Source: Chthoniobacterales bacterium (lineage in GTDB: Bacteria > Verrucomicrobiota > Verrucomicrobiia > Chthoniobacterales > UBA10450). From it: a DNA stretch of 60,620 nt. Positions 10,301 to 38,945 of the stretch are shown here, piece after piece. Where the stretch lies: contig JACDGS010000023.1 in assembly GCA_013821455.1 (NCBI GenBank), forward strand, positions 1 to 60,620, in the 5' to 3' direction. The first letter of the stretch is position 1. Each line of letters starts with the position of its first letter. The notes under the pieces are model-generated. The model was given only the letters and a program-made list of their open reading frames with translations, ran no database searches and was not told where the DNA came from. The translations under genes and the position numbers were made by a program.

Positions 10301-10573
10301 GGCCCTGATCCGGAGAGTTACTCCCTCGCCGCCATGGAAACGGAGATGGAAAGGAAGTTCTACCATTTACAACTCAGCATCTATACCGTGGCGCTGCATC
10401 GGTTTCTGCGCGGGCGCCGCCCGGGTTATGAGTACGATAAACATTTTGGCGGGTCGTATTACTTGTTTTTGCGCGGGATTGAACCGACGCGACCGGACCT
10501 GGGAATCTATCGTAAGAGACTGACTCTAAAATTTGTGCAGCAACTCGACTTACTTCTACAAAGCAACCCATGA
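7373..10573 (+). CDS. recB: Exodeoxyribonuclease V beta subunit RecB (helicase-nuclease)
   Basis: A 1066-aa UvrD-like SF1A helicase fused to a C-terminal nuclease. The Walker A motif ASAGTGKT is at residues 22-29. Further helicase motifs include DEFQDTDP and GDPKQAIYGFRGAD (motifs II/III), VTVHRSKGLEYDIVF (V) and VALTRARHRC (VI). The RecB nuclease signature LVDWKSNWLG contains Asp970 and Lys972 of the D-x-K catalytic pair. The start chosen is the ATG at 7373 that overlaps the recC stop; an upstream extension to 7217 would lie wholly within recC and is rejected. It unwinds and degrades DNA from double-strand ends with RecC and RecD and, after Chi, loads RecA. All catalytic residues I can check are present. 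Confidence 0.94.
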   Translation: MKRRQFDLIETPLEEGRTLIEASAGTGKTYTIAGIVLRLILEKDFLVKEILVTTYTELATEELRDRIRRLLRDTLTAFKFGSLSADQPNELITALLQRVDSNLALRRLDLALQTFDEAPIYTIHGFCQRMLQDHAFESAGLFDRELIRDQTHILGEIVDDFWRAHFYYGDPILAGLKDSDLKPQKLLNLLIGLTNNPTLVVEPDTGEQFEELTREYGDLSQTKDVSQEQLETTRERLVVCAQAKFLAWARAEMKRRKEGQNLLSFDDMLTRLHESLGGEGGAELAGRIRSQFKAALVDEFQDTDPIQYAIFARVYDGGGSVFFIGDPKQAIYGFRGADVFTYIDAAQSTPPAHQFTLGKNWRAEAGLVDAVNTVFSVRENPFVFEQIGFARAQAAGKADNTPLTLESVRRPPLQVWRALAAKPLTVPEADELLLRAVPGEIARLLNSNSRIGEEKVEPKHIAVLVRRNVEAQMMQEALTKAGIPSVLYAGANVFKSDEAHDLERILTAVVEPAHERLVKAALTTEMLGLTGEALEALTRDETAWEERLLRFQTYHLRWQERGFIQMLRSVVLQEKVRERLLSFPNGERRLTNLLHLAELLHGLCQESRLGMTGLLKRLGEQIRERNAAREEEYELRLERDEKAVRIVTVHRSKGLEYDIVFCPYTWRSKELKKDDDVIFHRDDRLTLDLDKSEDHRSAQRRERLAEELRLFYVALTRARHRCYFVCGSFRNADESAPGYLLGGGPNDPLTVPASVLENVAGIDLVDLTTITPEKFRPPPESNVSLSARSFDRSLDRSYGISSFTRLISGHAAEPATADEDALELEEAEPEVTVIAATSERTIFDFPRGMGPGTCLHHILEETTFSDLSQLGDTVSGRLRAFGIEEFENVVRQMIERVANVSLEKGMTLGGIDRRMQLPELEFYFPLGEVRREPLVKLLGDKRLQFQPLSGFMKGFIDLVFEHEGRFYLVDWKSNWLGPDPESYSLAAMETEMERKFYHLQLSIYTVALHRFLRGRRPGYEYDKHFGGSYYLFLRGIEPTRPDLGIYRKRLTLKFVQQLDLLLQSNP

Positions 10574-10580
10574 ACACATG

Positions 10581-10757
10581 TGTCATCCTGAGCGGAGCGC
10601 AGCGTAGTCGAAGCCGTAACGCAGCTTGCGCAGCAAGCGAGGCCGGGCTTTCCATCCCGCTGGGTTTCCGCGAACCCTTCGTTTCTCGCGGGTCAGCGCT
10701 TTATGGAGGTGCCGCGGGATCCCTCGACTACGCCTTCGGCTTCGCTCGGGATGACAG
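10581..10757. repeat. REP-like inverted pair between recB and recD
   Basis: The left arm at about 10581-10616 starts TGTCATCCTGAGCGGAGC. The right arm at about 10711-10757 runs GGGATCCCTCGACTAC and ends GCTCGGGATGACA. The arms can pair across roughly 95 bases. The element separates recD from the coupled recCB pair and could act as a transcription attenuator or mRNA-stabilising hairpin. Confidence 0.8.
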
Positions 10758-10789
10758 GCAACACGATTTATGGGATGGCTTGCACTTTC

Positions 10790-12559
10790 ATGAATAAGGA
10801 GGAGCCCTTTAGCTCCTTGGATAGGCATCTCGCCAGCCTGATGACTCGACTGGCTGAGAGTAAGGATAACAGCCTGGAGTTAGCCACGCTTCTTCTTAGT
10901 CGGCAGCAAACAAGTGGAAACACCTGTCTGTCATTTGAAGAAGTAAGTGAGGCGGAGTTATCCGCAGGTAAGAACGCCGATCTTTGGACAAAAGCGTTGC
11001 GCGCGACTGGCATGGTAGGAAAGCCTGGTGATCTTAAGCCGCTTATTCTCGATAAGAAAGATCGTCTCTACCTCCGCCGCTACTGGGAATACGAGCAGTC
11101 ACTGGCGGCGTCTATCAAAAAGCTCCTGGCCGCACCGCCGCCTTCCTTCGATCAAGAACTCCTAAGTGCCGGGTTGGATCGTTTGTTCCCGGAAAATCAG
11201 CAGACTAATTGGCAGCGCGTCGCGGCGAGCAAAGCTATCGCGAGAAACTTCTGTGTTATCACCGGCGGCCCCGGGACTGGAAAGACGCGCACAGTTATCG
11301 GCATTCTTGCTCTCTTGGTGGAGCAAGCGGGCGGTCCCTTGCGGATCGCCCTGGCCGCGCCGAGTGGCAAAGCCGCGGCGCGCCTCAAGGAGTCGATCGA
11401 GAGCAGTAAGGAGAAACTCGATTGCGCCGGGCAAGTAAAAGCGTGGCTTCCTAACGAAGCTTCGACTATTCATCGCCTCCTCGGAGTCATCCCTGACTCT
11501 CCCTACTTTCGACACAATGCGGAGCGTCCCTTGGTGGTTGATGCGGTTATCATTGATGAAGCATCAATGGTGGACCTGGCAACGATGGCTAAGCTTTTCG
11601 CTGCTATTCCTGCCGGGGCGAGAGTTATCCTTCTCGGCGATCAGGACCAACTTACTTCGGTGGAAGCAGGGTATGTCCTGGGAGATATTTGTCATGCTCC
11701 GCCTGAGTCTAAGTCACCGGCTAAGCTTACGCCGCAACTTAGTTTCGCTTTTGGTCAAGGAAGTTCGAGTCAGCCTTTGCGGGATTCGATTGTCGAGCTG
11801 CGGAAGAATTATCGCTTCCCGGAGGAGAGCGGTATTTACCAGTTAGTCGAAGCGATCAATCGTGGCGATGCCGACGCGGCACTTAAGCTCCTGCGAGATG
11901 AATCGCATGCTGATATAGCATGGAAGATTCTCCCGCACGCTCGCACGCTGCCAAAGTCGCTCCGCGAGACGGTGGTCATGTCTTACCAAAGTTACCTTGA
12001 AACCTCCGACCCGCGCGAAGCTCTCAGGCGCTTCGACGAATATCGAGTCCTATGCGCAGTCAGGAATGGGCCGTACGGTGTGGTGGAGTTAAACCGCCTA
12101 ATCGAGGGAGCACTTTTCGATGCGGGTCTTCTTCGAGAGATAGAGCATTCCTACCATGGCCAGCCGGTGATGGTAACGCGGAATGACTATAATAACCGGC
12201 TCTTCAACGGTGACGTTGGCATAACCATGGCTGATCCCGGGGCCGGTGGGGAGAAGCGAACGTTCTTTGCTTCAGCGGAAGGAAAGCTGCGGCGCGTCCT
12301 GCCTTCACGGCTGCCCATACATGAAACTGCGTTTGCGATGACGGTGCACAAAAGTCAGGGCTCCGAGTTTGCGCGCGTCCTCCTCCTATTGCCAGAGAGA
12401 GACTCGCCGCTCCTGACCCGCGAGTTACTCTACACGGGTCTAACGCGCGCGCGTCAGGGGTTGGAGATCTGGGCTACGGAGTCGGTCCTGCGCGCCGCGA
12501 TTGCGAAACAGGTAAGGCGTAGCTCCGGCCTGCGCGAGGCGTTATGGGAAGAGACTTAG
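10790..12559 (+). CDS. recD: Exodeoxyribonuclease V alpha subunit RecD
   Basis: An SF1B helicase of 589 aa from the ATG at 10790, close to the 608 aa of E. coli RecD. Walker A is GGPGTGKT, with the catalytic Lys at residue 165. Other motifs seen are DAVIIDEASMVD (motif II), LLGDQDQLTSVEAG (III) and, near the C-terminus, MTVHKSQGSEF and LYTGLTRAR (V and VI). It is the 5'-3' motor of RecBCD. The frame is open upstream to 10703, but that stretch is the translated REP element, so the later start is preferred; an ATG at 10775 is a possible alternative. recD is separated from recB by about 215 bases of repeat DNA, which may lower its expression relative to recCB. Confidence 0.92.
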   Translation: MNKEEPFSSLDRHLASLMTRLAESKDNSLELATLLLSRQQTSGNTCLSFEEVSEAELSAGKNADLWTKALRATGMVGKPGDLKPLILDKKDRLYLRRYWEYEQSLAASIKKLLAAPPPSFDQELLSAGLDRLFPENQQTNWQRVAASKAIARNFCVITGGPGTGKTRTVIGILALLVEQAGGPLRIALAAPSGKAAARLKESIESSKEKLDCAGQVKAWLPNEASTIHRLLGVIPDSPYFRHNAERPLVVDAVIIDEASMVDLATMAKLFAAIPAGARVILLGDQDQLTSVEAGYVLGDICHAPPESKSPAKLTPQLSFAFGQGSSSQPLRDSIVELRKNYRFPEESGIYQLVEAINRGDADAALKLLRDESHADIAWKILPHARTLPKSLRETVVMSYQSYLETSDPREALRRFDEYRVLCAVRNGPYGVVELNRLIEGALFDAGLLREIEHSYHGQPVMVTRNDYNNRLFNGDVGITMADPGAGGEKRTFFASAEGKLRRVLPSRLPIHETAFAMTVHKSQGSEFARVLLLLPERDSPLLTRELLYTGLTRARQGLEIWATESVLRAAIAKQVRRSSGLREALWEET

Positions 12560-17126: not shown

Positions 17127-20395
<3,269 letters not shown>

Positions 20396-20399
<4 letters not shown>

Positions 20400-21334
20400 G
20401 AGGCAACCTCCGAGCTGTAGCGGCGGTCCATGACCGCCGAATCTGCCGGCAACCGCTCGCTGGTTCTGCGTCGCGTTCGGCGGTCATAGACCGCCGCTAC
20501 AGCGAGCCAGAGAACGCCGGCGGCGATTAGCGCAGCGGGCAGGTAAACCTCCAGAACGAGATGATGCCGAAGTCGCGCGTGCGCGAGCCGGAGCTGCTCC
20601 GCCTGCGTCTCCGGCGTGAATTGATCGCTCCACTGAAATACCTCCGCGACGCGCTCGCCTGTTTTCGGTTCCACGAAATAACTGATTCCCTCATCTTCCC
20701 AGCGCACGACTACGCCGGAGTGCGGTTCCACTGAGACCTTACCCTTCCCATAAGTGATCGCGCGATAACGCTCCGGCACGTCCGGCAAGGCGACGTATCC
20801 CGAAGTCTCATCGATCCCATCGGCGACGAAGTTGAAAACATACACCTCCATCCCGTCGAGCTGCTCGGTGCGCTCGAAGGTCACGGTCCGCGGCCCGGCG
20901 TACATCGGATCCCATTGGCGGTATTCTTTCTTCTCGGTGTCAGGCGGAAACAGGTAGAGGCCGGTCCGCTCCTCGTTCCCGTAACCCGGAAGATTTTCGC
21001 GCGTTCGCCGGTCTACGCCATAAAGGCTGAGGATCTCGAACATGACCACGCCAGCCGGAGTGACCCAGTGAATGTCGCCTTGAATGATCGCGCTCCCGGC
21101 GACGCTGTTTAAGGTCTGGTCGTGGCGCCGAGTAATCGTTTCATATTCCTCGAGAGGCGCCGTGGGGCTCTGACGTGAACGACATTTCGCAGCGTATGTC
21201 GTCTCTGCGGTGTAATTCGCCGGCAGGCGTTCGAGGTAAGGCGCACCCCAAAAATATTGCGCCGCCGCTGCGAGCCAGAGACCCAGCGCGATCGGCAGGT
21301 GAAGGCGAAAGAAACGCGCACTCATCGTGGTCAT
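20396..21334 (-). CDS. DUF3068 / PorA-family-like membrane-anchored protein
   Basis: A 312-aa protein from the ATG at 21334, which overlaps the upstream kinase stop as ATGA. An N-terminal hydrophobic helix and a C-terminal helix (LEVYLPAALIAAGVLWLAV) bracket an extracytoplasmic domain. Segments such as LYGVDRRTRENLPG, EYRQWDPMYAGPRTV, EQLDGMEVYVF and VSVEPHSGVVVRWE match the DUF3068 pattern best known from actinobacteria. Function of the family is unclear; some members are called porins. In this operon it sits between two hybrid kinases, so a role in sensing or envelope signalling is plausible but unproven. The last 25 codons after the final helix derive from a palindromic repeat. It overlaps the next kinase start by four bases. 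Confidence 0.65.
20412..20505. repeat. TGTAGCGGCGGTC palindromic repeat pair at the end of a coding region
   Basis: A left arm TGTAGCGGCGGTCCATGACC at 20416 and a right arm GGTCATAGACCGCCGCTACA ending at 20500 are near-perfect complements. Each arm is itself partly palindromic (GGCGGTC/GACCGCC). The element supplies the charged C-terminal tail of the DUF3068-like protein, indicating insertion near the original 3' end of the gene. Confidence 0.8.
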
Positions 21335-24300
21335 GCGGTTGCGCATTCGAGCGACACCAGAGCGCCGTAAATCCTGTCGGCTTCTGCCTTCAGCTCCAAA
21401 AATACCGGCGCCGCGTCCATGAGATTCCGGCCGCTCCCCATCTCCTCCAGCTCCCGCGCTAAGCGATACGCATCCTGCGCGCCGAATGCGCCTAACGAGC
21501 TGAGCAAGGCATGCGCAGCACGCGCCACCGCAGCCGCATCTTCGCGCGCAATCGCATCGCGAATTTCCTCGAGCAGTCGCGGTGTGCCGTCGCGGAAAAG
21601 CGTCACCATTTGTTCGAGCAACTCTTCGTCGTTATCGAGCTGCTCGAGCAGTTTTTCGCGGGAGAAGACGGAGCCAGGCGAATCGTCTTCTTTCGTAATC
21701 GTCCTCGTTCTGAGATCCGAAGAAGGGGAAGGGAGCGACGACGAGGGCGACTGGGAGATGCGCGCAATGACTTCGAGAAGCTTTTCTTTTTGCAGCGGCT
21801 TCGAAATGTAATCGTCCATGCCCGCGGCGAGACAGCGCTCGCGGTCACCGGCCATGGCGTGCGCGGTCATCGCTACAATCGGCGTCCGGGGCGTGTCGTT
21901 GCGAACTTCCATCTCGCGGATGCGCCGCGTCGCTTCGAGGCCATCCATTTCCGGCATTTGGATGTCCATCAGGACGACGTCGAATGATTCGTCTATAAAT
22001 ACTTCCAGCGCGGCTCGTCCATTTTCCACGTGGGTCAATTCATACCCGCGCTTCTCCAAAATGCCGGTCGCAACCGCGCGATTGATCGCATTATCCTCCG
22101 CGATCAGGATGCGCAGCGCGCCGCTCTTCTTCTCGTAATCGTCCTCGTCCTTCGTCCTCGTCCTGGTTCTTAAATCGGGAGAAGGGAGCGAGGACGAGGA
22201 CGATTTAAAGGCGACGCTGAAATGGAAGGTGGTTCCTTTCCCTACTTCGCTTTCCAGCCAGATTCGCCCGCCCATTTGTTGGATCAACTGCGAGGCGATG
22301 GCGAGCCCGAGCCCGGTCCCCCCATAATGGCGCGTGGTCGAGCCATCGGCCTGCGCGAAGGCGTCGAAAATCACCTCCTGCTTTTCCGGCGCGATACCGA
22401 TGCCGGTATCGGCCACGGAAAAATGCAGGCAGTGCTCCGCCGGGTCGAGGGTGGTGCATTGCGATCTGCGCGGCTCGACTTCGACCGCGACCACGATGTC
22501 TCCGCGCTCGGTAAACTTGATCGCGTTCCCGACCAGATTGGTGAGAATTTGACCGAGCCGGAGGGGATCGCCGCGGAGGTCTTCCGGGATGCTCGCTGGA
22601 ATCACGCTGATGAGCTTGAGCTGCTTTTGCGCGGCGCGGCGGGAGAGCGGTTTTAAAAGATCACGCAGGCTGTCACGCAGACTGAAATTGATCGCTTCGA
22701 ATTCGACCTTGCCGGCTTCGATTTTTGAAAAATCGAGAATGTCGTTGATCAAGTGCAGGAGCGAATTCGCGGAGGTTTTCACCATCCCGAGATATTCCTG
22801 TTGGCCGGGATCGAGTTCGGATTCGAGCACCAAATCGGTCATGCCGATGATGCCGTTCATCGGCGTGCGAATTTCATGGCCCATGTTCGCGAGGAACTCG
22901 CTCTTGGCGCGGTTCGCGCTCTCGGCCACTTCCTTCGCCGCCTGCAACTCGGAGGTCCGCTCCAGGACGCGAAGGCCCAGCTCGGCGTTCAACGTTGTCA
23001 GCTTCTCTTCGCTCCGCTTGGCGTCGTCGATATCGGTGCAGGTGCCGACCCATTGCATGATCTCCCCCGCTTCGTTGCGCATCGGCAGCGCCTGCACGAA
23101 GTGCCAGCGATAAGTGCCGTCCGCGCCGCGCTTGAAGCGGTGCTCGGACTCGAATTTGTTTCCTGTCGTCAGCGCAGCGGTCCAGCGCTCGACGCAGGGC
23201 TGGAGATCGTCGGCATGGAGCAGATCGCGCCAGCCCGAGTCCCGGGTTTGCTCCAACGTCAGGCCGGTATAGTCGAACCACGCCTTGTTGTAATAATCGA
23301 GACCGCCGTCTGGCCGCGCGGTCCAAACGATTTGCGGGACCGCATCGGCGAGGAAGGTGTAGCGCTCCTCGCCTTCGCGCACGGCGGCGGCGACCTTCGC
23401 TTTCTTTAATTCCTGCTCCACGCGTACACGTTCGGTGATATCCTGCGTCGTCCCGACCATGCGCGTGGCCGTGCCTGCGTCGTCGAGGATCACGCGCGCC
23501 CGGCGTTGGAGGACGCGAACGCTGCCATCAGGAAGAACGATGCGCAGATCGACATTGCCCGACTGGCCGTCGGCCAGAGTCGTCTCCATGAACTTCTCCG
23601 CGACCGCGCAATCCTCCGGATGGACGCGGGTCAGGAAGTTGCCGTAGTTCGAGGCGATCTCGCCCGGGGCGTAGCCGAGGAGCCGAAATTGTTCGTCCGA
23701 CCAGACCGCTTCCAGCGTCGCCAGATCGAGATCGAAACTTCCGACCTCGGCCACTCGTTGCGCCTCGGCCAGCCGTTCTTCGCTGATCTCGAGATTGATC
23801 CGGCGCGTAGCGACCTCGCGCATCTCGCGCGTGCTTTGCGTGATGGAGAGGAAAAGAAAAACGTCTTCGAACAACACCCAGCCCGCGTGTTCGATCCAGC
23901 GCCATGGACTCGTCGTGAGTGTTCCGAAAGCCGAAAGCGGCCAAAAGATTCCGCGCGTCGCATGATCGAGTGCGACAACGGCGGTCGCGGTCGCAAGCAC
24001 GCGCCAGTCGCGATAAAAGGCGAGGAAAGCGAGCGAGCCGAAGACGTGGAAATGCGTCTCGATCCGGCCGCCGGTGAGATGGATGAGGAGCGCAGAGTAG
24101 AGGGTCTGGGAGACCGCGACGGTGTGCCGCGTGAGAACGGTGCCCGGCTGCCGGAGCGCGAGATAAACCGGCAGACTCGCAAGGGCGCCGCCGAGGAAAA
24201 TCGCCGCCCAGACGTGCCAGTGGACCAGGCTCTGCGCGCCGATCCACGTGCGCGGGGAAATCCAAACTGCGATGGCGATGCCGGCGATCCATTGCAGGAT

Positions 24301-24411
24301 CATGAGTCCGGCGAAGAGGCGATCCGCGCGACAGTGGATCGCGTGGAGATTCTCGCGGAAGAGGGATCGGGCGCGGTCGGTGCCGATAGGCGGCGCGGCT
24401 ATTTCTTGCAT
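21331..24411 (-). CDS. Membrane PAS-PAS hybrid histidine kinase with REC and Hpt domains
   Basis: The start is the ATG at 24411, preceded by GGAG and overlapping the upstream gene by 13 bases, giving 1026 aa. Residues 20-195 form a six-helix membrane domain with the motif ETHFHVFGSLAFLAFYRDW, an uncharacterised sensor module seen in kinases and chemoreceptors. Two PAS domains follow (about 210-335 and 350-475), then HisKA (phospho-His in GHEIRTPMN), HATPase ([24 protein letters not shown]), a receiver (AEDNAINRA, phospho-Asp in [11 protein letters not shown], Lys in ISKPL) and Hpt ([11 protein letters not shown]). The usual Ser before the phospho-His is Gly. Both late inter-domain linkers are made of a palindromic repeat. 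It is the largest gene of the operon and appears intact. Confidence 0.88.
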   Translation of the reverse strand: MQEIAAPPIGTDRARSLFRENLHAIHCRADRLFAGLMILQWIAGIAIAVWISPRTWIGAQSLVHWHVWAAIFLGGALASLPVYLALRQPGTVLTRHTVAVSQTLYSALLIHLTGGRIETHFHVFGSLAFLAFYRDWRVLATATAVVALDHATRGIFWPLSAFGTLTTSPWRWIEHAGWVLFEDVFLFLSITQSTREMREVATRRINLEISEERLAEAQRVAEVGSFDLDLATLEAVWSDEQFRLLGYAPGEIASNYGNFLTRVHPEDCAVAEKFMETTLADGQSGNVDLRIVLPDGSVRVLQRRARVILDDAGTATRMVGTTQDITERVRVEQELKKAKVAAAVREGEERYTFLADAVPQIVWTARPDGGLDYYNKAWFDYTGLTLEQTRDSGWRDLLHADDLQPCVERWTAALTTGNKFESEHRFKRGADGTYRWHFVQALPMRNEAGEIMQWVGTCTDIDDAKRSEEKLTTLNAELGLRVLERTSELQAAKEVAESANRAKSEFLANMGHEIRTPMNGIIGMTDLVLESELDPGQQEYLGMVKTSANSLLHLINDILDFSKIEAGKVEFEAINFSLRDSLRDLLKPLSRRAAQKQLKLISVIPASIPEDLRGDPLRLGQILTNLVGNAIKFTERGDIVVAVEVEPRRSQCTTLDPAEHCLHFSVADTGIGIAPEKQEVIFDAFAQADGSTTRHYGGTGLGLAIASQLIQQMGGRIWLESEVGKGTTFHFSVAFKSSSSSLPSPDLRTRTRTKDEDDYEKKSGALRILIAEDNAINRAVATGILEKRGYELTHVENGRAALEVFIDESFDVVLMDIQMPEMDGLEATRRIREMEVRNDTPRTPIVAMTAHAMAGDRERCLAAGMDDYISKPLQKEKLLEVIARISQSPSSSLPSPSSDLRTRTITKEDDSPGSVFSREKLLEQLDNDEELLEQMVTLFRDGTPRLLEEIRDAIAREDAAAVARAAHALLSSLGAFGAQDAYRLARELEEMGSGRNLMDAAPVFLELKAEADRIYGALVSLECATA
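21681..21755. repeat. CGTCCTCGTCC-family palindromic repeat in a kinase linker (copy 1)
   Basis: The left arm has CGTAATCGTCCTCGTTCTGA; the right arm has GAGCGACGACGAGG. In frame, it encodes a Ser/Arg/Thr/Asp-rich linker between the receiver and Hpt domains of the membrane hybrid kinase. Confidence 0.7.
22133..22206. repeat. CGTCCTCGTCC-family palindromic repeat in a kinase linker (copy 2)
   Basis: GTCCTCGTCC at 22141 pairs perfectly with GGACGAGGAC at 22193, around a loop containing TTCTTAAATCGGGAGAAG. It encodes the linker between HATPase and receiver of the same kinase (SSSSLPSPDLRTRTRTKDED). Confidence 0.8.
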
Positions 24412-25073
24412 TTCGTTTCTCCGGCCGCGCAGTTCGCGGCGAAAAGTGGGCAACCGAAAACCGGGGTCACGATCGGCGCGCGTCTCCTGTCGTCCTCGTC
24501 CTTCGTCCTCGTCCTCGCTCTTAAATTCGAATAAGGGATCGAGGACGAATGAAGCAACGCGGTGATCGCACTGCGGCCGGCATTATCGCCCGCGTGTCCG
24601 CGCGATTCGGTGATGCCGCCTTCGAAGATCAACGCTCCGCTGCGGTCAAAGAGCGGCGTCTGTCCGGAAGTCTCCGCATGGAAAAGGTGCGCTTCGGTCC
24701 CGGCTTCATCCACCGAAACAGTCACGCCCGGAATCGCAGTGGCGGTGCGCCACAAATCGGTCTTCACCCACTCTTCGGTAAACTCGTTAGGCCGAATGAA
24801 GACGACGCGCGCGCTGACCCGCCCCTGGTTTTCCGCCATCAAAATTTCCAGTTCGCCGAGGGTCGCGCGCGTGCAGGGACAATGCGGATGCGCGAGCAGG
24901 ACCAGCGTCGGTCGGTCGCGCTCGAGCGCGATGCCCGCGCCGGCTGGCCACATCGTCGGTGCGCTCGCCACGAGGCCGGGAGTATTGGAGTAAGCCGCGA
25001 GCAATCCCATGGCGCTCCCGACCACCGCCAGCCAGACCGCCGTCACCGCGATCCTCCTGAAAAGCGGTTTCAT
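24399..25073 (-). CDS. Thioredoxin-fold RedB-like membrane-anchored protein
   Basis: A 224-aa protein with an N-terminal transmembrane or signal helix (about residues 8-30) followed by a thioredoxin-like domain. The redox motif is HPHCPCTRATLGEL, a CxC rather than the usual CxxC. The short motif and the following TRATLGEL helix resemble proteins annotated RedB. It is coupled to the REC-HisKA gene upstream (ATGA at 25070-25073) and overlaps the kinase downstream, so it is part of the signalling operon. It might sense or relay the redox state in the periplasm. The last 35 residues derive from a palindromic repeat (copy 3) and then a Cys-containing tail; the original C-terminus was probably shorter. 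Confidence in the fold is good, in the role low. Confidence 0.68.
   Translation of the reverse strand: MKPLFRRIAVTAVWLAVVGSAMGLLAAYSNTPGLVASAPTMWPAGAGIALERDRPTLVLLAHPHCPCTRATLGELEILMAENQGRVSARVVFIRPNEFTEEWVKTDLWRTATAIPGVTVSVDEAGTEAHLFHAETSGQTPLFDRSGALIFEGGITESRGHAGDNAGRSAITALLHSSSIPYSNLRARTRTKDEDDRRRAPIVTPVFGCPLFAANCAAGETKCKK
24490..24549. repeat. CGTCCTCGTCC-family palindromic repeat (copy 3)
   Basis: The left arm reads CGTCCTCGTCCTTCGTCC; the right arm GATCGAGGACGA is shorter. It lies in the 3' end of the RedB-like gene and encodes RARTRTKDEDD, the same peptide type as in copy 2. Confidence 0.72.
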
Positions 25074-25756
25074 GAATGGATCACCTGCGTTTCGAGAAAA
25101 CCCAATTCCTCCGGACTCGATTGCGAAACCGCGAGAATGCGATCGATCAGCGTGAGCAGGTGACGCCCGCTGCCGAGAATCTGCTGCACACTTTCCTGCT
25201 GCTCCTCATTCAGGGGATCGAGCTCGAGGAGCTGCGCGAAACCGAGCACGTGATTCATCGGCGTGCGCAGCTCGTGGCTCGCCTGGGAAAAAAAATCGCT
25301 TTTGGCTTTAAGCGCGGCCCGCAGCTCCGCGGTGCGTTCGTTGACCCGCAGCTCGAGGTCGGCGTTCGCGGCGCGCAGATTTTGATCGAGGCCGAGAATG
25401 CGCGTGGCGACCCGGATGTGCGCGGCGAACATTTCCTTCTCGAACGGCTTGACGATGAAGTCGTCCACTCCGGCTTCGGAGGCTTCGAGGTAATTTTCTT
25501 TCCCGGCGCGCGCGGTCAGGAGGATGACGTAAGTCAGCTCCGGCCGGTGTTCCGCCCGGATTTTCCGGCAGAATTCCAAACCGTCCATTCCCGGCATCAT
25601 CCAATCGGAGATGACGAGCGGTTGGCGTTCCTCTTGCCAGATTTCCCACCCTTCGAGGCCGGTCTGCGCTTCGCGAACGTCGTGCCCGAGTTTGCGCAGG
25701 GTGGAGCTGAGCAAAAGACGGGTGATGCCGTCATCATCGGCGACAAGTACATTCAT
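25070..25756 (-). CDS. REC-HisKA protein lacking an ATPase domain
   Basis: A 228-aa protein from the ATG at 25756; a TTG six bases upstream is less likely. Residues 1-120 form a receiver domain with acidic VADDDG, phospho-Asp in ISDWMMPGMDG, Thr in LLTARAG and Lys in IVKPFEK. A coiled coil follows, then a HisKA dimerisation domain with SHELRTPMNHVLG and LLTLIDRILAVS. The protein stops there: no HATPase follows. It heads the minus-strand operon. It may act as a phosphotransfer or dimerisation partner for the operon kinases, which carry matching HisKA domains. Alternatively it is the stable product of a kinase that lost its C-terminus. The TGA overlaps the next start. Confidence 0.82.
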   Translation of the reverse strand: MNVLVADDDGITRLLLSSTLRKLGHDVREAQTGLEGWEIWQEERQPLVISDWMMPGMDGLEFCRKIRAEHRPELTYVILLTARAGKENYLEASEAGVDDFIVKPFEKEMFAAHIRVATRILGLDQNLRAANADLELRVNERTAELRAALKAKSDFFSQASHELRTPMNHVLGFAQLLELDPLNEEQQESVQQILGSGRHLLTLIDRILAVSQSSPEELGFLETQVIHS

Positions 25757-25887
25757 GGGCAAAAGCGCTAGGAGAAGCAGCTTTAGAGAGGCACGAAGCG
25801 TGCCGCTGGGTCGCTTTTACCCAAGGGGAACTACTTACCCAGTCTCCCCTCCGAAGGATAAAACGAAATCGGCGCTACCGTCGGAGC
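25757..25887. promoter_or_regulatory. Short intergenic region, likely operon leader
   Basis: About 130 bases separate the stop of the LOV kinase from the start of the REC-HisKA operon, both on the minus strand. It is the only substantial break upstream of the six-gene operon, so its promoter or a read-through terminator is expected here. I cannot identify a confident -35/-10 pair. Confidence 0.35.
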
Positions 25888-28800
25888 CTATGCCAGGACG
25901 CGCGGCGCGCCCTCCTGCGCCAGCGTTTCATCCAGCACTCGCAGGAGTTCCTGCACTTGAAACGGCTTCGTGATGTACGCGCACGCTCCGAGTTCTTTCA
26001 GGCGCTCGATCTGCCCTCCGGTCGCATCGGCACTCAGCATCACCACCGGAATCGTCGCGGTCTGCGGATCGCTCCGCAGCCAGGTCAACACTTGGTCTCC
26101 GTTCATATCCGGCAGATGCAAATCGAGCAGGATCACATCCGGCCGGTTGTGACGCGCCAACTCCAAGCCGATCCTGCCCTGCTGGGCGGTGATCATTCTT
26201 AGACCCGGCCGGTGGATGATGATGCGCTCGACGAGTTTCAGGTTCGAGGAGCTGTCCTCGATGTAGAGCAGGGTCTTTGGATTGTTGATGGCTGATTGTT
26301 GATCGCTCAACGCAGGCCGTGCCACTTCGCTCTCCTCGTTAGGCAAAGAATGCGCCGCCGGCAATTCGATCCAGAAAACGCTGCCGCGACCGCGCTCGCT
26401 TTCTGCGCCAATCATCCCGCCCATCGCCTTCATCAGTCCCTGCGAGATGGCGAGGCCCAGGCCGATGCCTTCGATTTTATCCTCCTCGGTGTGCAGTCGT
26501 TTAAAGGGCTGGAAGAGGCTCGGCAGTTCAGCGGCATCAATCCCGAGGCCGGTGTCCTTAACTTCGAGCCGGACAAAACCACGGGAAGTTCCCTCGCAGG
26601 TTAGCGTGACCGCACCCCCATCTTTGTTGTACTTGATCGCGTTCGAAAGCAGGTTGAGCAGGACCTGCTGCAGCCGCTGCTCATCGGCGAACACGTATTG
26701 ATCACAAACGAATTCGGCCACTTCCACTTTTCGCCGGGTCGCCATCGGTCGGACGAGGGCCAGGGCCGAGTTGAGGGCAAGGCGAAGCGGCACCGGCTTG
26801 ATCGAAAGGTGCGTACGGCCGGCTTCAATGCTGGCCAAATCCAATATTTCGTTGATGAGTTGAAGCAGATGGGCGCCCGCGCTCTGGATCTGCTCGGCGT
26901 TTTCGCGCTCGTCCGCGGTCTGCGCGTCCAGTTCGGCGAGCTGGCCAAATCCGAGGATGGCATTGAGTGGGGTCCGTAGCTCGTGGCTCATGCGGGAGAG
27001 AAAATCGCTCTTGGCCGCATTCGCGCGTTCGGCTTCGGCCTTCGCTTCCTCCAGCGCGATTGCGGTTTCCCTGCGCTCGGTGATATCGGCTTGGAGGCCG
27101 ACGAAGTTCACCAGCGTCCCCGCACTATCGAAGACCGGCGTGATCGTGATCTCATTCCAGAACGTGCTCGAACCCTTTCGATAGTTGAGCACGTCGCCCG
27201 AGAAAGCGCGCCCGGCTTTGATCGCCTCGCGCATCTCCGCGTTCATGGCGGAATCGGTCTTGGGCCCCTGCAGAAACCGGCAGTTGCGTCCCAGAACTTC
27301 CTCGGGCGCATAGCCGGTGAGAGAATAGAAAGCGGGATTTGCGAAAATCATCGGATTATCCGGCAGCCGCGGATCCGTGATCACGACGCCGCTGCTCAGA
27401 TTTGAAATGGCAGAGGCGAGCTGGCTATTTTCGAGCGCTGCTTGTCGCAACTGCTCCTCGGCCTCTTTCCGCTCCGTGATGTCGGTGACCATCGCCAGCG
27501 CCCCGCCGAATCCCCCTTTCGCCGCGGGCAGGGGATTGGTCACGACGAGCGCCCAGAGATGCGAGCCATCACGCCGCCGAGAGCGAAATTCGTGCTGCTC
27601 GGCGATTCCTTGGCTGCGACGCTCCAAATTCTTCTCGGCGATCTGGCGCGCGTCATCGTCCATGAAATCGTACATGGAGCGGCCCTCCATTTCCGCGGCG
27701 GTGACGCCGAGCATCGCGGCCATCTTCGGATTCGCAAAGGTCGTCCGACCCGAAGCATCGATGACCCAGATTCCCTCCTGAGCGGTCTCGACAATCTGGC
27801 GGTAGCGCGCCTCGGCCGCCGCCAGCTTGATTTCCGCATGTTTTTGCCCCGTGATGTCGATGAGCAAACCGTCCCAGACGACGTCGCCATTCGGCCGGGA
27901 CACCGGCCGCGAGGAACCGCGGACCCATATTTCCTCGCCGGAGGTTCGCAGGAAACGGCCTTCCCAATTCCAATCTTGCAGGCTCGTTCGCGATTTCTCG
28001 ACCGACTGCACAAAAGTTTCCAGGTCCGCGGCAGCAATTCGATGGACGAGCACGTTGGCATCGGCCTCGAGCTCGGCCGGCTCTAGCCCGAATACTTCGC
28101 GCGCGCCGTCGCTGACAAATGGAAATTCCATCGACCCATCCGCGCGTTGCAGGAATTGATAAACCATCCCGGGCGCATTGGCCGCGACGCGATGATAACG
28201 CGCGTCGCTTTCGCGCAGGGCCTCTTCCGCGCGTTTTCGCTCGGTCACATCCACCAAAAGGCCGTCCCAAACGGTGTTGCCGTCGGGTTGCATGGCTCTG
28301 CGCGCCGCGCCTTCGATCCACTTAATCTCACCCGAAGAGAGCTGGACGCGCCCCTCCCAGCTCCAGTCTGCGTCCGTGGTGAACGCCTCTTCTCCCAGCC
28401 GGTCAAAATCGTCGCGGTCGTCCGGGTGCACCAGACTGCCTAAAGAATTCGTCTCCTCGCCGAAATAGCTGGGATCGACTCCGAGAAGTTGGCGGCATCC
28501 TTCGCTCGCATATTGATAGACAACGGAAAGATCCGGGCGGCGGACCAGGCGATAGACCATCCCCGGCACGTTCGCGATGACCGCATCGTAGCGGGCTTGG
28601 GTTTCGCGCAAGGCGCTGGCCACCTGCATCCGCTCGGTGATATCATGAGCGGTGCCGGTGATGCGAGCGACCTTGCCATCGGAGGCGCGGCGTGCGCTCG
28701 CGCGCGCCGCGATCCAGTGCACGGTGCCATCGGGCCAGACCAAGCGGTGCTCGATCTCGTAGGGGACACCGTTTTCGACTGTCCGATTCAGTTCCGCGCG

Positions 28801-29937
28801 CAACCGCACCCGATCATCGGGATGGACAGCATGCATGAAATCCTCGAAGACCGATCCTGATGCCACGGACATGCCAAACATTTGCTCCAGCCTGGGCGAC
28901 GCCTCGATCGTCTGGTTCGTGAGATCGAAATCCCACGTCCCCAAGTCGGCTCCCGCGATCGCAACTTTTAATTTCTCTTCGCTAATTCGAAGCGCTTCCG
29001 TTCGTGCGCGCACGCGTTCTTCCAGTTCCTCCTGCGCCTCGCGTAATGCTTCCTCGGCTTCTTTGCGCCAGGTCATGTCGCGCACGATCGATACCGCCCC
29101 CCACTGAATTCCGTTCTCCGTCAGCGGATAGCTTGCGATCCAAAACCAGCCATTGATCGTCGGCACTTTGCCTTCCCAGACGACGGGTCTGCCGTCCGTG
29201 AAGACCATGGCGCAGGGCGGCTGCGTTTCCGGCGTAGCTGTGCCGCAGTAACAGGCGCGGTAATCGAGGCCGCCAAGATTTCCATGCACCGGCTCGAATC
29301 GCTCGCGCATCGATCGGTTCGCGCGCAGAATTTCGCCTTCCAGATTCAAGATGCAGACGTGATCGGGAATCGCGTCGAAGGATTGCTGCCATTCCTCCGT
29401 AATCCGGACGACCGACTTATTGACTCGCTCGCGTTCCACTAATCCTGCCTCCAGCCCCGCGTTCGCCTTCGTCAGCTCCGCGGTGCGTTCTTTCACGCGC
29501 TGCTCGAGCCGTTGGTTCTGCTCCCGTAATTCCAGATGCAGAAAGCGGGTAGCCAGCAGGTTTCCCACGCGCAGCACGATCTCGGGGGGATCGTACGGTT
29601 TGTTCAAAAAATCCGTCGCGCCGTTCCCGAGTGCGGCCTGCTTTGTTTCCGCATCCGGCAATGCCGTGACGACCAGGATCGGCAAAAAAACACCGGGCTC
29701 GATCTCGGCGCGAAGTCGCTTGAGGACATCGGCGCCCGAAAGCTTCGGCATCATCCAATCGAGGATGAGGAGATCGGGCTGGAACTGCTGAAAACGCGCA
29801 AGTGCTGTTCGCGGATCGAGAATTCGTTCCACGTGCTGGTAGCCGTCGGCCTCGAGAATGCGGCAGAGCACGTCCGCCGCCATCTCTTCATCGTCGATGA
29901 TGAGAATCCGCGCTCGCTGGGAGATTTGGTCGCGCAT
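25888..29937 (-). CDS. LOV-domain multi-PAS hybrid histidine kinase (REC-PAS5-LOV-HisKA-HATPase-REC)
   Basis: A 1349-aa soluble hybrid kinase; ATG at 29937 chosen over an upstream TTG. Order: receiver (about 1-125, phospho-Asp in ILDWMMPKLSG), coiled coil, five PAS domains (about 170-830), a LOV domain (about 845-955), HisKA (SHELRTPLNAILG), HATPase (NLLSNAIKYN, DTGLGI, GIGLGLAI) and a terminal receiver (LLDLHLPDMNG, Lys in ITKPF). The sixth sensor domain carries GRNCRFLQGPKTD with Cys886 at the flavin-adduct position, preceded by VVITDPRLPDNPMIFAN and followed by FWNEITITPVF and FVGLQADIT. These are the hallmarks of photoactive LOV domains. A blue-light-regulated kinase is inferred. The reading frame is intact, unlike many neighbours. 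Confidence 0.9.
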   Translation of the reverse strand: MRDQISQRARILIIDDEEMAADVLCRILEADGYQHVERILDPRTALARFQQFQPDLLILDWMMPKLSGADVLKRLRAEIEPGVFLPILVVTALPDAETKQAALGNGATDFLNKPYDPPEIVLRVGNLLATRFLHLELREQNQRLEQRVKERTAELTKANAGLEAGLVERERVNKSVVRITEEWQQSFDAIPDHVCILNLEGEILRANRSMRERFEPVHGNLGGLDYRACYCGTATPETQPPCAMVFTDGRPVVWEGKVPTINGWFWIASYPLTENGIQWGAVSIVRDMTWRKEAEEALREAQEELEERVRARTEALRISEEKLKVAIAGADLGTWDFDLTNQTIEASPRLEQMFGMSVASGSVFEDFMHAVHPDDRVRLRAELNRTVENGVPYEIEHRLVWPDGTVHWIAARASARRASDGKVARITGTAHDITERMQVASALRETQARYDAVIANVPGMVYRLVRRPDLSVVYQYASEGCRQLLGVDPSYFGEETNSLGSLVHPDDRDDFDRLGEEAFTTDADWSWEGRVQLSSGEIKWIEGAARRAMQPDGNTVWDGLLVDVTERKRAEEALRESDARYHRVAANAPGMVYQFLQRADGSMEFPFVSDGAREVFGLEPAELEADANVLVHRIAAADLETFVQSVEKSRTSLQDWNWEGRFLRTSGEEIWVRGSSRPVSRPNGDVVWDGLLIDITGQKHAEIKLAAAEARYRQIVETAQEGIWVIDASGRTTFANPKMAAMLGVTAAEMEGRSMYDFMDDDARQIAEKNLERRSQGIAEQHEFRSRRRDGSHLWALVVTNPLPAAKGGFGGALAMVTDITERKEAEEQLRQAALENSQLASAISNLSSGVVITDPRLPDNPMIFANPAFYSLTGYAPEEVLGRNCRFLQGPKTDSAMNAEMREAIKAGRAFSGDVLNYRKGSSTFWNEITITPVFDSAGTLVNFVGLQADITERRETAIALEEAKAEAERANAAKSDFLSRMSHELRTPLNAILGFGQLAELDAQTADERENAEQIQSAGAHLLQLINEILDLASIEAGRTHLSIKPVPLRLALNSALALVRPMATRRKVEVAEFVCDQYVFADEQRLQQVLLNLLSNAIKYNKDGGAVTLTCEGTSRGFVRLEVKDTGLGIDAAELPSLFQPFKRLHTEEDKIEGIGLGLAISQGLMKAMGGMIGAESERGRGSVFWIELPAAHSLPNEESEVARPALSDQQSAINNPKTLLYIEDSSSNLKLVERIIIHRPGLRMITAQQGRIGLELARHNRPDVILLDLHLPDMNGDQVLTWLRSDPQTATIPVVMLSADATGGQIERLKELGACAYITKPFQVQELLRVLDETLAQEGAPRVLA
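26279..26310. repeat. GATTGTTGATGGC-type short repeat in the LOV kinase linker
   Basis: GGATTGTTGATGGCTGATTG followed by TTGATCG lies exactly in the linker between HATPase and final receiver, encoding SDQQSAINNPK. Tandem TTGATNG units of this type occur as interspersed repeats in environmental genomes; here there is one copy. Confidence 0.5.
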
Positions 29938-29996: not shown

Positions 29997-32464
29997 TCAG
30001 CCGGCAGCTCCCGTGAGCAGCGTGCGATCCAAGACGTCCAGAAACTGCCTTACATCGAGCGGTTTCGTCAGGTATTCGGACGCGCCTGCGCTTTTGAGCC
30101 TATCGATCTGCCCGCGCGTGGCGTCAGCACTGATCACGATCACTGGGATGGAAGCGCAGGCCGGATCTCCGCGCAGCCGCACCAGCACTTCATGACCACC
30201 CATATCTGGCAGATTTACATCCAGGAGAATCAGATCGGGCCGATGTTCCCGCGCCATCTTCAAGCCGGCTAATCCTTCGGCTGCGGCGACGAGATTAATC
30301 TGCGGACGGCGCTCCATGAGCCGTTCGATCAGGCGGAGATTGGAGAGATTATCCTCTATATATAATAGAGTGTGTAGACGCCCGGTCGCGATTGCGTTCG
30401 GCGCCGCGATCTCCTGGGACATATCCTCAAAAAGAGACGGTGCTTCCGTGCGCGGGAATTCCACCCAGAAAGTGCTGCCCTGACCGGCACTGCTTTCCAC
30501 TCCCATCGTGCCTTCCATGGCCTCGACCAGACGCTTCGCGACCGCTAATCCCAGACCCGTCCCTTCCACGGTGCTTTGCTCTGCCCCCAGTCTTTCGAAC
30601 GGCATGAAAAGCTGATCGAGTCGCTCCGAGGGAATGCCGATTCCAGTGTCGGCGATCGAAACGCGCATGCGGGCGCCGATCGCTTCGAGGAAAGAGTCAC
30701 CGATCCGCCCAGGCGATTATATTTGATCGCATTGGAAAGAAGATTGATCAGGACCTGCTTTAGCCGCTGGCGGTCTGCCTGGACAAAGAGGGAACAATCT
30801 GGCCCAGGATTGAGCCGAACTTCGCGCGCGCTCGCGAGCGGCTGCACCAGACTAAGGGTCTCCCGGATGGCTTCGCCGATTGCCACCGGCTCGAGCGAAA
30901 GCGAGAGGCCGCCCGCTTCGATGCGGGAGATGTCGAGCACTTCGTTGATCAACTCCAGCAGGTGACGCCCGCCGCGCAGGATGTGCCCGACCCCGTCGTG
31001 TTGTTGCTCGCTTAATTCATCCAACTCGAGCAACTGCGCGAAGCCGAGAATCGCGTTCATCGGCGTGCGCAACTCGTGGCTCATGCGCGAAAGGAATTCG
31101 CTCTTCGCGTGATTGGCGCGGTTCGCTTCGGCTTCCGCCGTTTTGAGCGAATTGCTGACGCGCGTGCGCTCCGTGATGTCGTGCGCCACGCAGAACATGG
31201 TCTTGTCCGCTTCCGACCAGTAGGCCGACCACATCACGTCGATGACCGCACCGTCTTTGCGGATGTAACGATTTTCAAAATCACTGGCCGCGCTTCCAGC
31301 CGTGATCTCGGCGGCAACGCGATTGGTTTTTTCGCGGTCGTCGGGATGCACCAGGTCGATATATGGTTTGCCCATCAGCTCGATCGATTTGTAACCCCAC
31401 AGCGTCTCGCATGCGGCGCTGACCGTCACAAAACGCCCCATCGCATCGATTGTGCAGATGACGTCGCGCGAGTTGTCCATGATGAGCTGGTTCGAATGAA
31501 CCGCCGCTTCTAACTCGTCATGCGCCCCGAGCAACTGCTGGTCCGCCCTGGCCCGCGCCGCGTCGGTCTTAAAAAGCAGGTAGGCATTGCAAGCCACCAG
31601 CGAACCGAAAACCAGCATGTTGGTCACGGTGTAGAGAGCGACGCCCATCTCGGTATCGAAGAACCCCATCCGCTGACCTTCGAGCCGCAGCCAGCCGATC
31701 ACGGCTGGGACCAGGATCGCCGCCGGGAGGAGACGTCGCGCCATCATTCCACCGGCGTTTTTTCCGGTAATCACCGCCAGAAAACCGCGCCGCGCCTGGC
31801 AGGCCATGATCCCAAAAGCGACCGCTAAAAAAGCGACGGCGGTGGGCAAGGCCATCGGAATAAAAGACTGCATTCCATAAAATGCGCGGATGCCATACGC
31901 GTAACCGAGAAGGGCGAGCAACGCCTCAAAACCGCAGACGAGTGCGGCGATGCAAGCCAGTGGGCTCAGTTGCCGTTTTTTTGAATGAATTAAAAACAGC
32001 GCGTTGCCCACGAGGAAAAAATTCAGGGCAGTGTTGGGCGCCATGACGTTGGGCCTGAGAAAACCAACGCTGAGTTTTGCGGGGAAGAGCCATTGATCCA
32101 CGCGTAGATCGGGACCACCCAAAATCGCGACGATCTTTGCCGACCCGATCAGAACAATCAGCAGTGCGCACGCGAGCGATGCCCCGGAGAAAGTAGCGTC
32201 GTCGGTTTTTTCGTCCGAGGAAAGCGCGAGCGAAATCGCGGCCAGCAGAAACGCTACTGCCGTCATCGGGTTCATCGCGACCAGCGCGGGAAGAATTCGT
32301 TTGAGAAGATCGACATCGAACGTCCAGCCGAACAGAACGAGGCTGGCGATGAGCGCTGTGACCACCGCCGACAGAATCACCGCGCGGGGATTCGATTTGC
32401 GAGACTCAATACGGCCGAATATCCCAGGCCCACCGTTTACTCCAGACGAGTCATGCCTTGCCAC
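29997..32464 (-). pseudogene. Membrane PAS hybrid histidine kinase with a frameshift in the ATPase domain
   Basis: The first frame (GTG at 32464 to 30545) encodes eight or so transmembrane helices (about 25-300, MASE-like), one PAS domain (about 325-445), HisKA (SHELRTPMNAILGFAQ) and the start of HATPase (NLLSNAIKYNRLGGSVTLS). A -1 shift near 30690 moves the rest to the frame beginning near 30668, which carries DTGIGIPSERL, GTGLGLAV and a terminal receiver (YIEDNLSN, LLDVNLPDMGG, LTKPLDV). With one base restored the protein would be about 820 aa and conventional. As written, the first ORF ends in about 50 unrelated residues and lacks an ATP lid. Either a real null allele or a sequencing indel. 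Confidence 0.82.
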
Positions 32465-37653: not shown

Positions 37654-37700
37654 TCGAGAAACGCACGCGTTTCGTCGACACCGCGTTGCAATTGACCGAA

Positions 37701-38945
37701 ATGAGGGCGCGCCCTTCGGCGTCCGTGTACTTTTCCCGACTCCGCGACAGATTCGCTCCGCTGCTGGAGCGGCCAGAGCTGGCGGAGGGCTCAGTATGCG
37801 TGGCGGTAATGCGCGGCGTAACGCCGCGCGGCCGTCTTGTGAACACGCCGAACGAAAGCGATTGGGAAGCAACTCCGATCCAGAACCTGACGCGATATCG
37901 CACATCGGGTACATACTTCGCACGTTTTCGAGTCGGTAAGAAACTCGTTTGGAAAAGCCTGAAGACGACCGTCTTTTCGGTCGCAAGACAGCGGCTGTCG
38001 GACATGATCCGCGAGCATCGCGCAAAGGCTCAATCGGTGACAGCGTTCGCCAACGGCAAGATGAACATGGGCGATGCGGCGGCGGTTTATCTTCAGAAGG
38101 TCAAGGCGAACGTCTCATTGAAGCCACGTTCGAAGGATTACCGCGAAATGATGATCGACTTCATCCGGCGCTCCTGGCCGGCGCTGATGGAGACAGATGT
38201 GCGGAAGGTGACTGAGCGGGATTGCGAGAATTGGCTCATGCGCTATCAGCAACGGTACGCGCCCACTGTGGTCAACAACAGCATCGGGACGTTACGCGGA
38301 ATCTTCGATGAGGCGATCAGGACCGGTGCACGCTTCGACAATCCCGCTGCTGAGCTTTCGCGCGTGAGGGTGCGAGCGAAGCGGCTCGAGCTGCCATCAC
38401 GTGAGAACTTCTTGAAGTTCGTTGAGGAGATTCGTACGGCCGGTGCGCGTCAGTCGAAGGATTGCGCAAACCTGGTGCGATTTCTCGCCTACAGCGGTAT
38501 GCGCATTGGCGAGGCTAGATTCGTCACTTGGGCGGATGTGAATTTTAGCCGTCGCGAGCTGCAGGTACGCGGCGATCCTGAGACAGCAACGAAGAACGGA
38601 GAAACGCGTCATATCCCCATGATCGATCAGTTAGACGAGATGCTGACACAGTTACGGCAAGAGCGGCCGGATGAGTCATTAAGCGCAACCGTCATGCGCG
38701 TTTTCGAATGTCAGAACAGTATGACGCATGCAGCCGAGAAGATCGGAATGAAGCGGATCACGCATCACGATCTGCGCCATCTGTTCGCGACAATTTGTAT
38801 CGAGAGCGGAGTGGACATCCCGACGGTGTCGCGCTGGCTTGGACACAAAGACGGGGGTGCGCTTTGCATGAAAACGTACGGTCATTTGCGACAGGATCAT
38901 AGCTTCGCACAGGCACGACGAGTGAATTTTGGCGTCGCAACCTAG
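37701..38945 (+). CDS. int: Tyrosine recombinase / integrase
   Basis: About 414 aa from the ATG at 37701; a TTG at 37686 and later GTG starts are alternatives, as the N-terminus is poorly constrained. An arm-binding or AP2-like N-terminal part contains WKSLKTTVFSVARQRL, then a SAM-like core-binding domain (MNMGDAAAVYLQKV onward), then the catalytic domain. The catalytic residues are visible: Arg in AYSGMRIGEARF, His and Arg in THHDLRHLFAT, His in RWLGHKD and Tyr in MKTYGHLR. It lies about 115 bases from the left att repeat and reads into the element. It is expected to integrate and excise this element at tRNA-Thr, using the HTH protein at 38968 as directionality factor. Confidence 0.93.
   Translation: MRARPSASVYFSRLRDRFAPLLERPELAEGSVCVAVMRGVTPRGRLVNTPNESDWEATPIQNLTRYRTSGTYFARFRVGKKLVWKSLKTTVFSVARQRLSDMIREHRAKAQSVTAFANGKMNMGDAAAVYLQKVKANVSLKPRSKDYREMMIDFIRRSWPALMETDVRKVTERDCENWLMRYQQRYAPTVVNNSIGTLRGIFDEAIRTGARFDNPAAELSRVRVRAKRLELPSRENFLKFVEEIRTAGARQSKDCANLVRFLAYSGMRIGEARFVTWADVNFSRRELQVRGDPETATKNGETRHIPMIDQLDEMLTQLRQERPDESLSATVMRVFECQNSMTHAAEKIGMKRITHHDLRHLFATICIESGVDIPTVSRWLGHKDGGALCMKTYGHLRQDHSFAQARRVNFGVAT

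Follow-up and report, generated by a model that had tools for sequence, protein, structure and literature searches.

The window (the whole stretch of 60,620 nucleotides that was analysed) codes on its minus strand for a large histidine kinase in which a LOV domain directly precedes the kinase region (Table 1). The segment in question is a LOV domain by the available tests of sequence and fold, and the protein is probably a blue-light-controlled hybrid histidine kinase. The kinase is real and was correctly described by a previous sequence-only reading; by its predicted domains it belongs with the LOV hybrid histidine kinases already known, of which it is a good further example and not a new kind of photoreceptor. 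It leaves the knowledge of LOV signalling unchanged, and represents a well-conserved multi-input hybrid kinase from a lineage that is probably Verrucomicrobiota.

Table 1. Positions of the LOV kinase, its domains and key residues, and of the adjoining genes in the window
Feature	Position	Strand	Basis and remarks
LOV hybrid histidine kinase	25888-29937	minus	ORF from ATG, 1,349 aa; alternative TTG start 29982
REC1, N-terminal receiver	29569-29907	minus	PF00072; phosphoacceptor Asp60, codon 29758-29760
Five-PAS array, LOV not counted	27472-29370	minus	Pfam and PAC motifs; outer limits approximate
Single PAS_9 matches in the array	27472-27777, 27850-28128, 28633-28911	minus	Pfam PAS_9
LOV domain, residues 850-954	27076-27390	minus	PF13426 (PAS_9), E 2.3e-22; PDB search; predicted structure; Foldseek
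Cys886, predicted adduct-forming cysteine	27280-27282	minus	Aligns with YtvA Cys62 (alignment to YF1)
Asn899 (YtvA position 75; Val or Ile in most LOVs)	27241-27243	minus	Pocket alignment
Gln949, corresponding to YtvA Gln123 (flipping glutamine)	27091-27093	minus	Pocket alignment
LOV-to-kinase linker, Asp951 (DIT) to His985, 34 residues, predicted helical	26983-27087	minus	
HisKA (DHp), phosphoacceptor His985	26818-27015	minus	PF00512
HATPase_c, N-box Asn1099	26353-26685	minus	PF02518
REC2, C-terminal receiver, Asp1272 (codon 26122-26124)	25930-26280	minus	PF00072; limits approximate
PAS hybrid kinase, upstream, in two frames (break within the ATPase domain)	30545-32464 and 29997-30668 (29997-32464)	minus	
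REC-DHp protein without ATPase domain, 230 aa; candidate phosphotransfer partner	25070-25762	minus	
Small protein with CPCTR motif and hydrophobic start (by eye)	24399-25073	minus	No Pfam match
Hybrid kinase with PAS, HisKA, HATPase, REC, Hpt and hydrophobic N-terminal part (by eye)	21331-24453	minus	

The domain order of the LOV kinase is REC, five PAS, LOV, HisKA, HATPase and REC. In the ORF reading, use of the alternative TTG start adds 15 residues to the protein. Pfam identifies two PF00072 stretches, PAS, HisKA and HATPase_c, all above cut-offs, while the G boxes DTGLGI and GIGLGL were read by eye. PAC-like DIT motifs are found at residues 287, 432, 563, 694, 819 and 951. The motif at residue 951 is that of the LOV, so that five other PAS domains are present; a further pattern match at residue 338 is no PAC motif. 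The protein is a hybrid kinase in that its receivers are fused to the kinase with Asp60 and Asp1272 intact (Pfam, sequence), and a LOV histidine kinase in that the LOV is joined to a DHp domain with His985 and to an ATPase domain. The five additional PAS domains and the two receivers had both been proposed in the sequence-only reading. That reading had also assigned the motifs of a canonical LOV domain to 27090-27420, and these are found there in the minus-strand frame: GRNCRFLQ is present, with its cysteine at residue 886 counted from the ATG at 29937. The assignment as a canonical LOV domain is borne out by a sequence search of the PDB, by the predicted fold and by a published pattern.

The LOV segment gives the strongest of the 25 PAS_9 matches (PF13426) in the 4.3 Mb genome. 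In the PDB, 155 distinct sequences match it at E <= 1e-5, with 3.6e-36 as the best value; the 60 listed comprise phototropins, aureochromes, LOV fusions and histidine kinases, including a blue-light-activated one. The kinase entries among these that recur in Foldseek are titled there as LOV structures. The ranking is headed by the Meiothermus ruber LOV (3.6e-36), followed by variants of the Chloroflexus aggregans LOV. When LOV, linker and kinase are compared together to the PDB the top match is YF1 (4gcz, 6.3e-50). The AlphaFold2 model of the LOV domain, whose input alignment held 38 sequences (the window LOV and 37 LOV relatives picked by hand), has a mean pLDDT of 94.1, includes both flanking helices and has no residue below 70. 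Its best Foldseek match is MrLOVe (9vf7; TM 0.90 by query, 0.7 A, 136 columns) and all 50 Foldseek rows listed are LOV structures or LOV-containing constructs. The search pattern for bacterial LOV domains given in PMC4844311 matches the LOV kinase once, at residues 867-886. No match to the motif G-x-N-C-R-F-[LM]-Q appears when the window is mononucleotide-shuffled 200 times and each shuffle is read in six frames. When the motif is reduced to a shorter, degenerate codon pattern, there are 2 matches genome-wide and 3 in the backward-read control; since the control matched more often than the motif, this codon pattern alone proves nothing at the scale of the genome. Its second place (C68) is without the following [LM]Q and is absent from the PAS_9 matches.

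The flavin pocket was compared at 14 positions, with YtvA numbering transferred from the YF1 alignment, between 73 Cys-bearing LOVs (one of them the window's own) and 29 Cys-less LOV-like segments, the latter including near-copies as well as two segments each from loci L018 and L030; the set of LOV relatives is the best 80 of 99. The window LOV carries the commonest residue of the Cys-bearing LOVs at 11 of the 14 positions. The nine YtvA residues T30, N37, N61, R63, Q66, R79, N94, N104 and Q123 are all identical in it. These nine are flavin-contacting residues. Gln123 is the flipping glutamine of YtvA (PMC4844311). The exception to this conservation is YtvA position 75, occupied by Val in 49 and by Ile in 16 of the 73 Cys-bearing domains, where the window has Asn; among the 72 other LOVs this residue is found once (L032, from a Planctomycetaceae MAG). 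Met at position 78 (5/73) and Ile at position 106 (3/73 including the own copy, mostly Leu elsewhere) are mild changes. Asn at position 75 or Ile at position 106 could alter cofactor affinity or adduct lifetime.

The unusual Asn899 could be taken as a sign that the protein is degenerate, either a decayed kinase or one whose flavin binding was lost. In the adjoining hybrid kinase the reading frame breaks within the ATPase domain, through a frameshift mutation or an assembly error, so that decay or assembly error exists nearby. Against this reading, the LOV kinase has an uninterrupted frame of 1,349 codons and its phosphoacceptor residues are intact, and its LOV model stays at or above a pLDDT of 70 throughout; degeneration is highly improbable.

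In the Cys-less segments Asn104 is replaced in 29 of the 29. Asn61 is kept in two of them and Gln123 in eight, against 28 for Asn94 and 22 for Gln66. The photocycle set is thus partly tied to the cysteine and partly general to the fold. The other LOV-like domain of the same genome (C42, which is L003) is of the Cys-less kind. For the window protein, in its preferred reading as a blue-light-controlled kinase, sequence and fold point to a first step in which the LOV binds flavin and Cys886 bonds reversibly with flavin C4a under blue light. Gln949 would then read the adduct and bring about a change in the helical linker that leaves the LOV beta-sheet.

The spacing between DIT and the phosphoacceptor His is 34 residues in the window LOV kinase and 36, by the same count, in YF1. 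Among 31 distinct PAS/LOV-HisKA linkers including the window's, extracted with fixed patterns from loci fetched by the searches of this analysis and therefore no random sample, 34 is the commonest length (24 linkers), and 28 share the heptad phase of the window kinase (length modulo seven equal to 6). The 17 Cys-bearing LOVs placed directly before a kinase His have the same origin; beyond them, such a His box is lacking within 60 residues in 62 Cys-bearing LOVs, and a DIT-like motif in 6. Their spacing is 34 in eight (the window, L016, L053 and L149-L153), 20 in two (L012 and L014, two heptads less and in the same phase) and 29 in seven (L032, L033, L042, L044, L051, L068 and L162). The LOV kinases with 29 residues all have an HDFNN His box and share the phase of YF1, while those with 34 or 20 residues have HELRTP, HEIRTP or HDLxxP His boxes. 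The natural LOV kinases examined display two linker phases, correlated with His box type, and the window kinase is in the 34 group. These two phases might go with different light responses.

LOV-kinase linkers are described in PMC6798134 as continuous coiled coils in which light acts as a rotary switch, a model that the predicted 34-residue linker fits. The same source gives a 7n / 7n+1 linker rule for YF1, and phytochrome kinases follow other registers according to PMC11164954. A call of light-activated versus light-repressed kinase from the linker length was considered and dropped. The linker of YF1 differs from that of the window by two residues and the natural kinases are two-phased, so that no single rule applies and the sign rule of YF1 is not transferable. 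The 34-residue linker would continue straight into the DHp helix. Light would twist the dimeric coiled coil and shift the balance between kinase and phosphatase activities at His985, in the manner of YF1. The same dimer may also be biased by the N-terminal receiver and by the five PAS domains that precede the LOV, in which case light would be one of several inputs.

Relatives of the kinase are found in 38 other genomes (E <= 1e-100, at most 16 candidates per genome). They cover the C-terminal half of the protein with 40-53% identity, and no match listed in this search lies before residue 681. Among the 13 loci fetched for these relatives a Cys-bearing LOV is present only in L124 (G048), where the LOV is followed by PAS, GAF and PAS domains before the kinase (read by eye from L128). 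A protein of the same family (L113) carries a Cys-less LOV-like PAS, with GQTPRILQ, at the exact place of the LOV, and in further same-family relatives a kinase of this type is preceded by different PAS domains, in many cases at an identical linker length. This organization suggests that a LOV module, most simply one from the same lineage, occupies the PAS slot of a lineage-specific kinase in the usual register. The same-family kinases are thus the natural comparison for a photosensor that replaces another PAS sensor with the register kept.

LOV matches at E <= 1e-25 are found at 28 places in 21 of the 213 genomes of the order. The cysteine is present at 24 of these places including the window's, which gives Cys-bearing LOVs in at least 20 of the 213 genomes, the own genome included; this is a lower bound owing to the E cut-off, to mixed genome completeness and to scoring of at most 19 candidates per genome. 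One of the places (G090) has a stop codon in frame. Within the genus one of five genomes, the own one, has a LOV match at 1e-15, and in a smaller set searched at 1e-15 some LOV match is found in 14 of 58 genomes, several of them without the cysteine. The view that blue-light sensing would be notable in this lineage is not supported, since with Cys-bearing LOVs in so many genomes of the order a LOV here is no surprise. Verrucomicrobia are also among the phyla named in the legend to a 2014 survey's figure on species that possess LOV and/or BLUF proteins (PMC4844311). According to the same survey about half of the bacterial LOV proteins are histidine kinases, some of them with extra domains, among which PAS is often present. 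A literature search on LOV or blue light in Verrucomicrobia or Opitutaceae, by the titles and beginnings of abstracts listed, yielded no light-response study; proteorhodopsin and photolyases are reported in a Verrucomicrobia MAG (PMC5673642). The probable placement of the organism in Verrucomicrobiota comes from a comparison of its RpoB with nine other genomes. Identity is 72% over residues 1-1222 with an MAG titled Opitutaceae, 80% over 1-925 with a bog MAG whose title, Bacteroidetes, is doubtful, and 51% along almost the entire protein with two Planctomycetota, Candidatus Laterigemmans and a Sedimentisphaerales MAG. Partial segments alone (56-62% over the longest) were matched in an actinobacterial, a Deinococcales and a deltaproteobacterial genome, and none in two genomes titled Verrucomicrobiota and Cyanobacteria.

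The scattered distribution of LOVs in the order and genus is in favour of a different reading of the domain, namely that it binds flavin and serves mainly as a redox sensor or as a constitutive structural PAS, with light as a minor or absent input. A profile search of the own genome, which is 97.5% complete, identified no BLUF and no phytochrome PHY domain at E <= 0.001, and the role of the Caulobacter LOV kinase seems light-independent as presented in PMC4844311, which would both agree with such a function. It is opposed by the joint retention of the cysteine with Asn104, Asn61 and Gln123. This suggests selection for the photocycle, in a pattern that is not uniform (Asn94, Gln66), and a mainly light-independent role is unlikely.

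The LOV tree (127 columns and 73 rows, with one copy of the window's own LOV left out and with L124 and L015, the same protein, both in) is poorly resolved and has several long branches. It features a large Pseudomonadota group (43/46 Pseudomonadota rows; support 100/99, starred), and the window LOV stands apart from it with LOVs of the same family and order (95/79, not starred). Together with the finding that the kinase half is closest to same-family kinases among the relatives searched, other phyla being outside that search, this position speaks against the view that the LOV kinase was recently imported as a whole from another phylum. Such an import is very unlikely, and would be compatible with the other readings of the protein; the patchy distribution of LOVs in the lineage and the presence of a Burkholderiales MAG row (L058) in the wider 10-row tree group of the window are in its favour. 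Shuffling and loss inside the lineage fits the LOV distribution better than import.

The LOV kinase gene stands among two-component genes of the minus strand. It is followed downstream by genes coding the REC-DHp protein, the small protein, the Hpt hybrid kinase, a PorA-like protein, a HAMP protein and a second Hpt hybrid kinase. The small protein has a weak SelL-related redox match (NCBIfam, E 0.0078, below cut-off), the HAMP protein has a Cache match below cut-off, and the second Hpt hybrid kinase has two receiver stretches. No DNA-binding response regulator or cognate regulator was identified in the 20 frames scanned. In the blue-light-controlled kinase, phosphate would pass from His985 to the C-terminal receiver and then to a phosphorelay partner, possibly a receiver/Hpt protein of the same gene cluster, such as those at 17127-19286 and 21331-24453.

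With at most 13 candidates scored per genome, the REC-DHp protein directly downstream is found in 13 of the order's 213 genomes, one of them the own. It is always a short frame of 203-317 codons, the shortest (L173) starting at a contig edge. Identity is 59-68% in the other 12 genomes, and the receiver Asp (Asp53) and the DHp His (His163) are kept in five of the five proteins aligned. PHROGs and NCBIfam return general receiver or kinase matches, the listed NCBIfam ones all below cut-offs. The REC-DHp proteins are a real family, and this conserved protein without an ATPase domain is more unusual than the LOV kinase itself; its functional link to the LOV kinase is a conjecture. One reading, which we consider unlikely, makes it a new kind of phosphotransfer protein, either accepting phosphate from a receiver of the LOV kinase or trans-phosphorylated by the ATPase domain of the kinase in a mixed dimer. 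If true, it would imply a light-gated multi-step relay. The neighbours of the REC-DHp gene vary among the genomes looked at. Note that in a relative of the order (G055:C28, L138 6695-10123) the gene is followed by KaiC (Pfam 5.4e-113) and KaiB (1.5e-23), and that the own genome codes for a two-domain KaiC-type ATPase beside a PAS hybrid kinase (G000:C115, L146 5382-8736). A link between KaiC and the LOV kinase was rejected: the own KaiC-type ATPase is on another contig and the REC-DHp neighbours differ elsewhere, so that nothing ties KaiC to the LOV kinase.

Other features of the window are listed here for completeness. The N-terminal hydrophobic segment (by eye) of the hybrid kinase that follows the small protein contains ALDHATRGIFWP and has no Pfam or NCBIfam match. 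Similar N-terminal segments begin several same-family hybrid kinases (L114, L115, L116 and L119), and this part may be a His-rich membrane sensor domain not described before. On the plus strand, RecC-like and RecD-like genes (4188-12559) flank a 1,118-aa frame (7217-10573) that is, by position, at the expected place of RecB. A phage-type integrase is coded at 37686-38945 on the same strand (PF00589, E 5e-20).

The window kinase has counterparts among known LOV systems, which it resembles in different parts. LovK-LovR of the free-living bacterium Caulobacter is based on a LOV histidine kinase and is likened here by its description in PMC4844311; unlike the window kinase, LovK has a known partner regulator. 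The Brucella LOV-HK (3t50, 6ph4) is also a natural LOV histidine kinase whose LOV core is 50% identical to that of the window (3t50_B). It differs in having a PAS domain between LOV and kinase, according to the entry titles, and the match to 6ph4 ends just past the LOV. The engineered YF1 (4gcz), a fusion of the YtvA LOV and the FixL kinase, has the LOV directly before the DHp domain like the window protein. YF1 is synthetic, and the match covers LOV, linker, DHp and ATPase domains and spans neither receivers nor extra PAS domains. Cagg_3753 of Chloroflexus aggregans is, like the window protein, named a multi-sensor hybrid histidine kinase, and its LOV (6rhg) is 55% identical to the window LOV (E 5.8e-36), the matched entries being isolated LOV domains. 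The closest solved LOV among the matches listed, by sequence and fold, is that of Meiothermus ruber Mrub_1259 (9vf7, molecule named "histidine kinase"), whose likeness extends to the N- and C-terminal helices with 46% identity when the LOV alone is compared.
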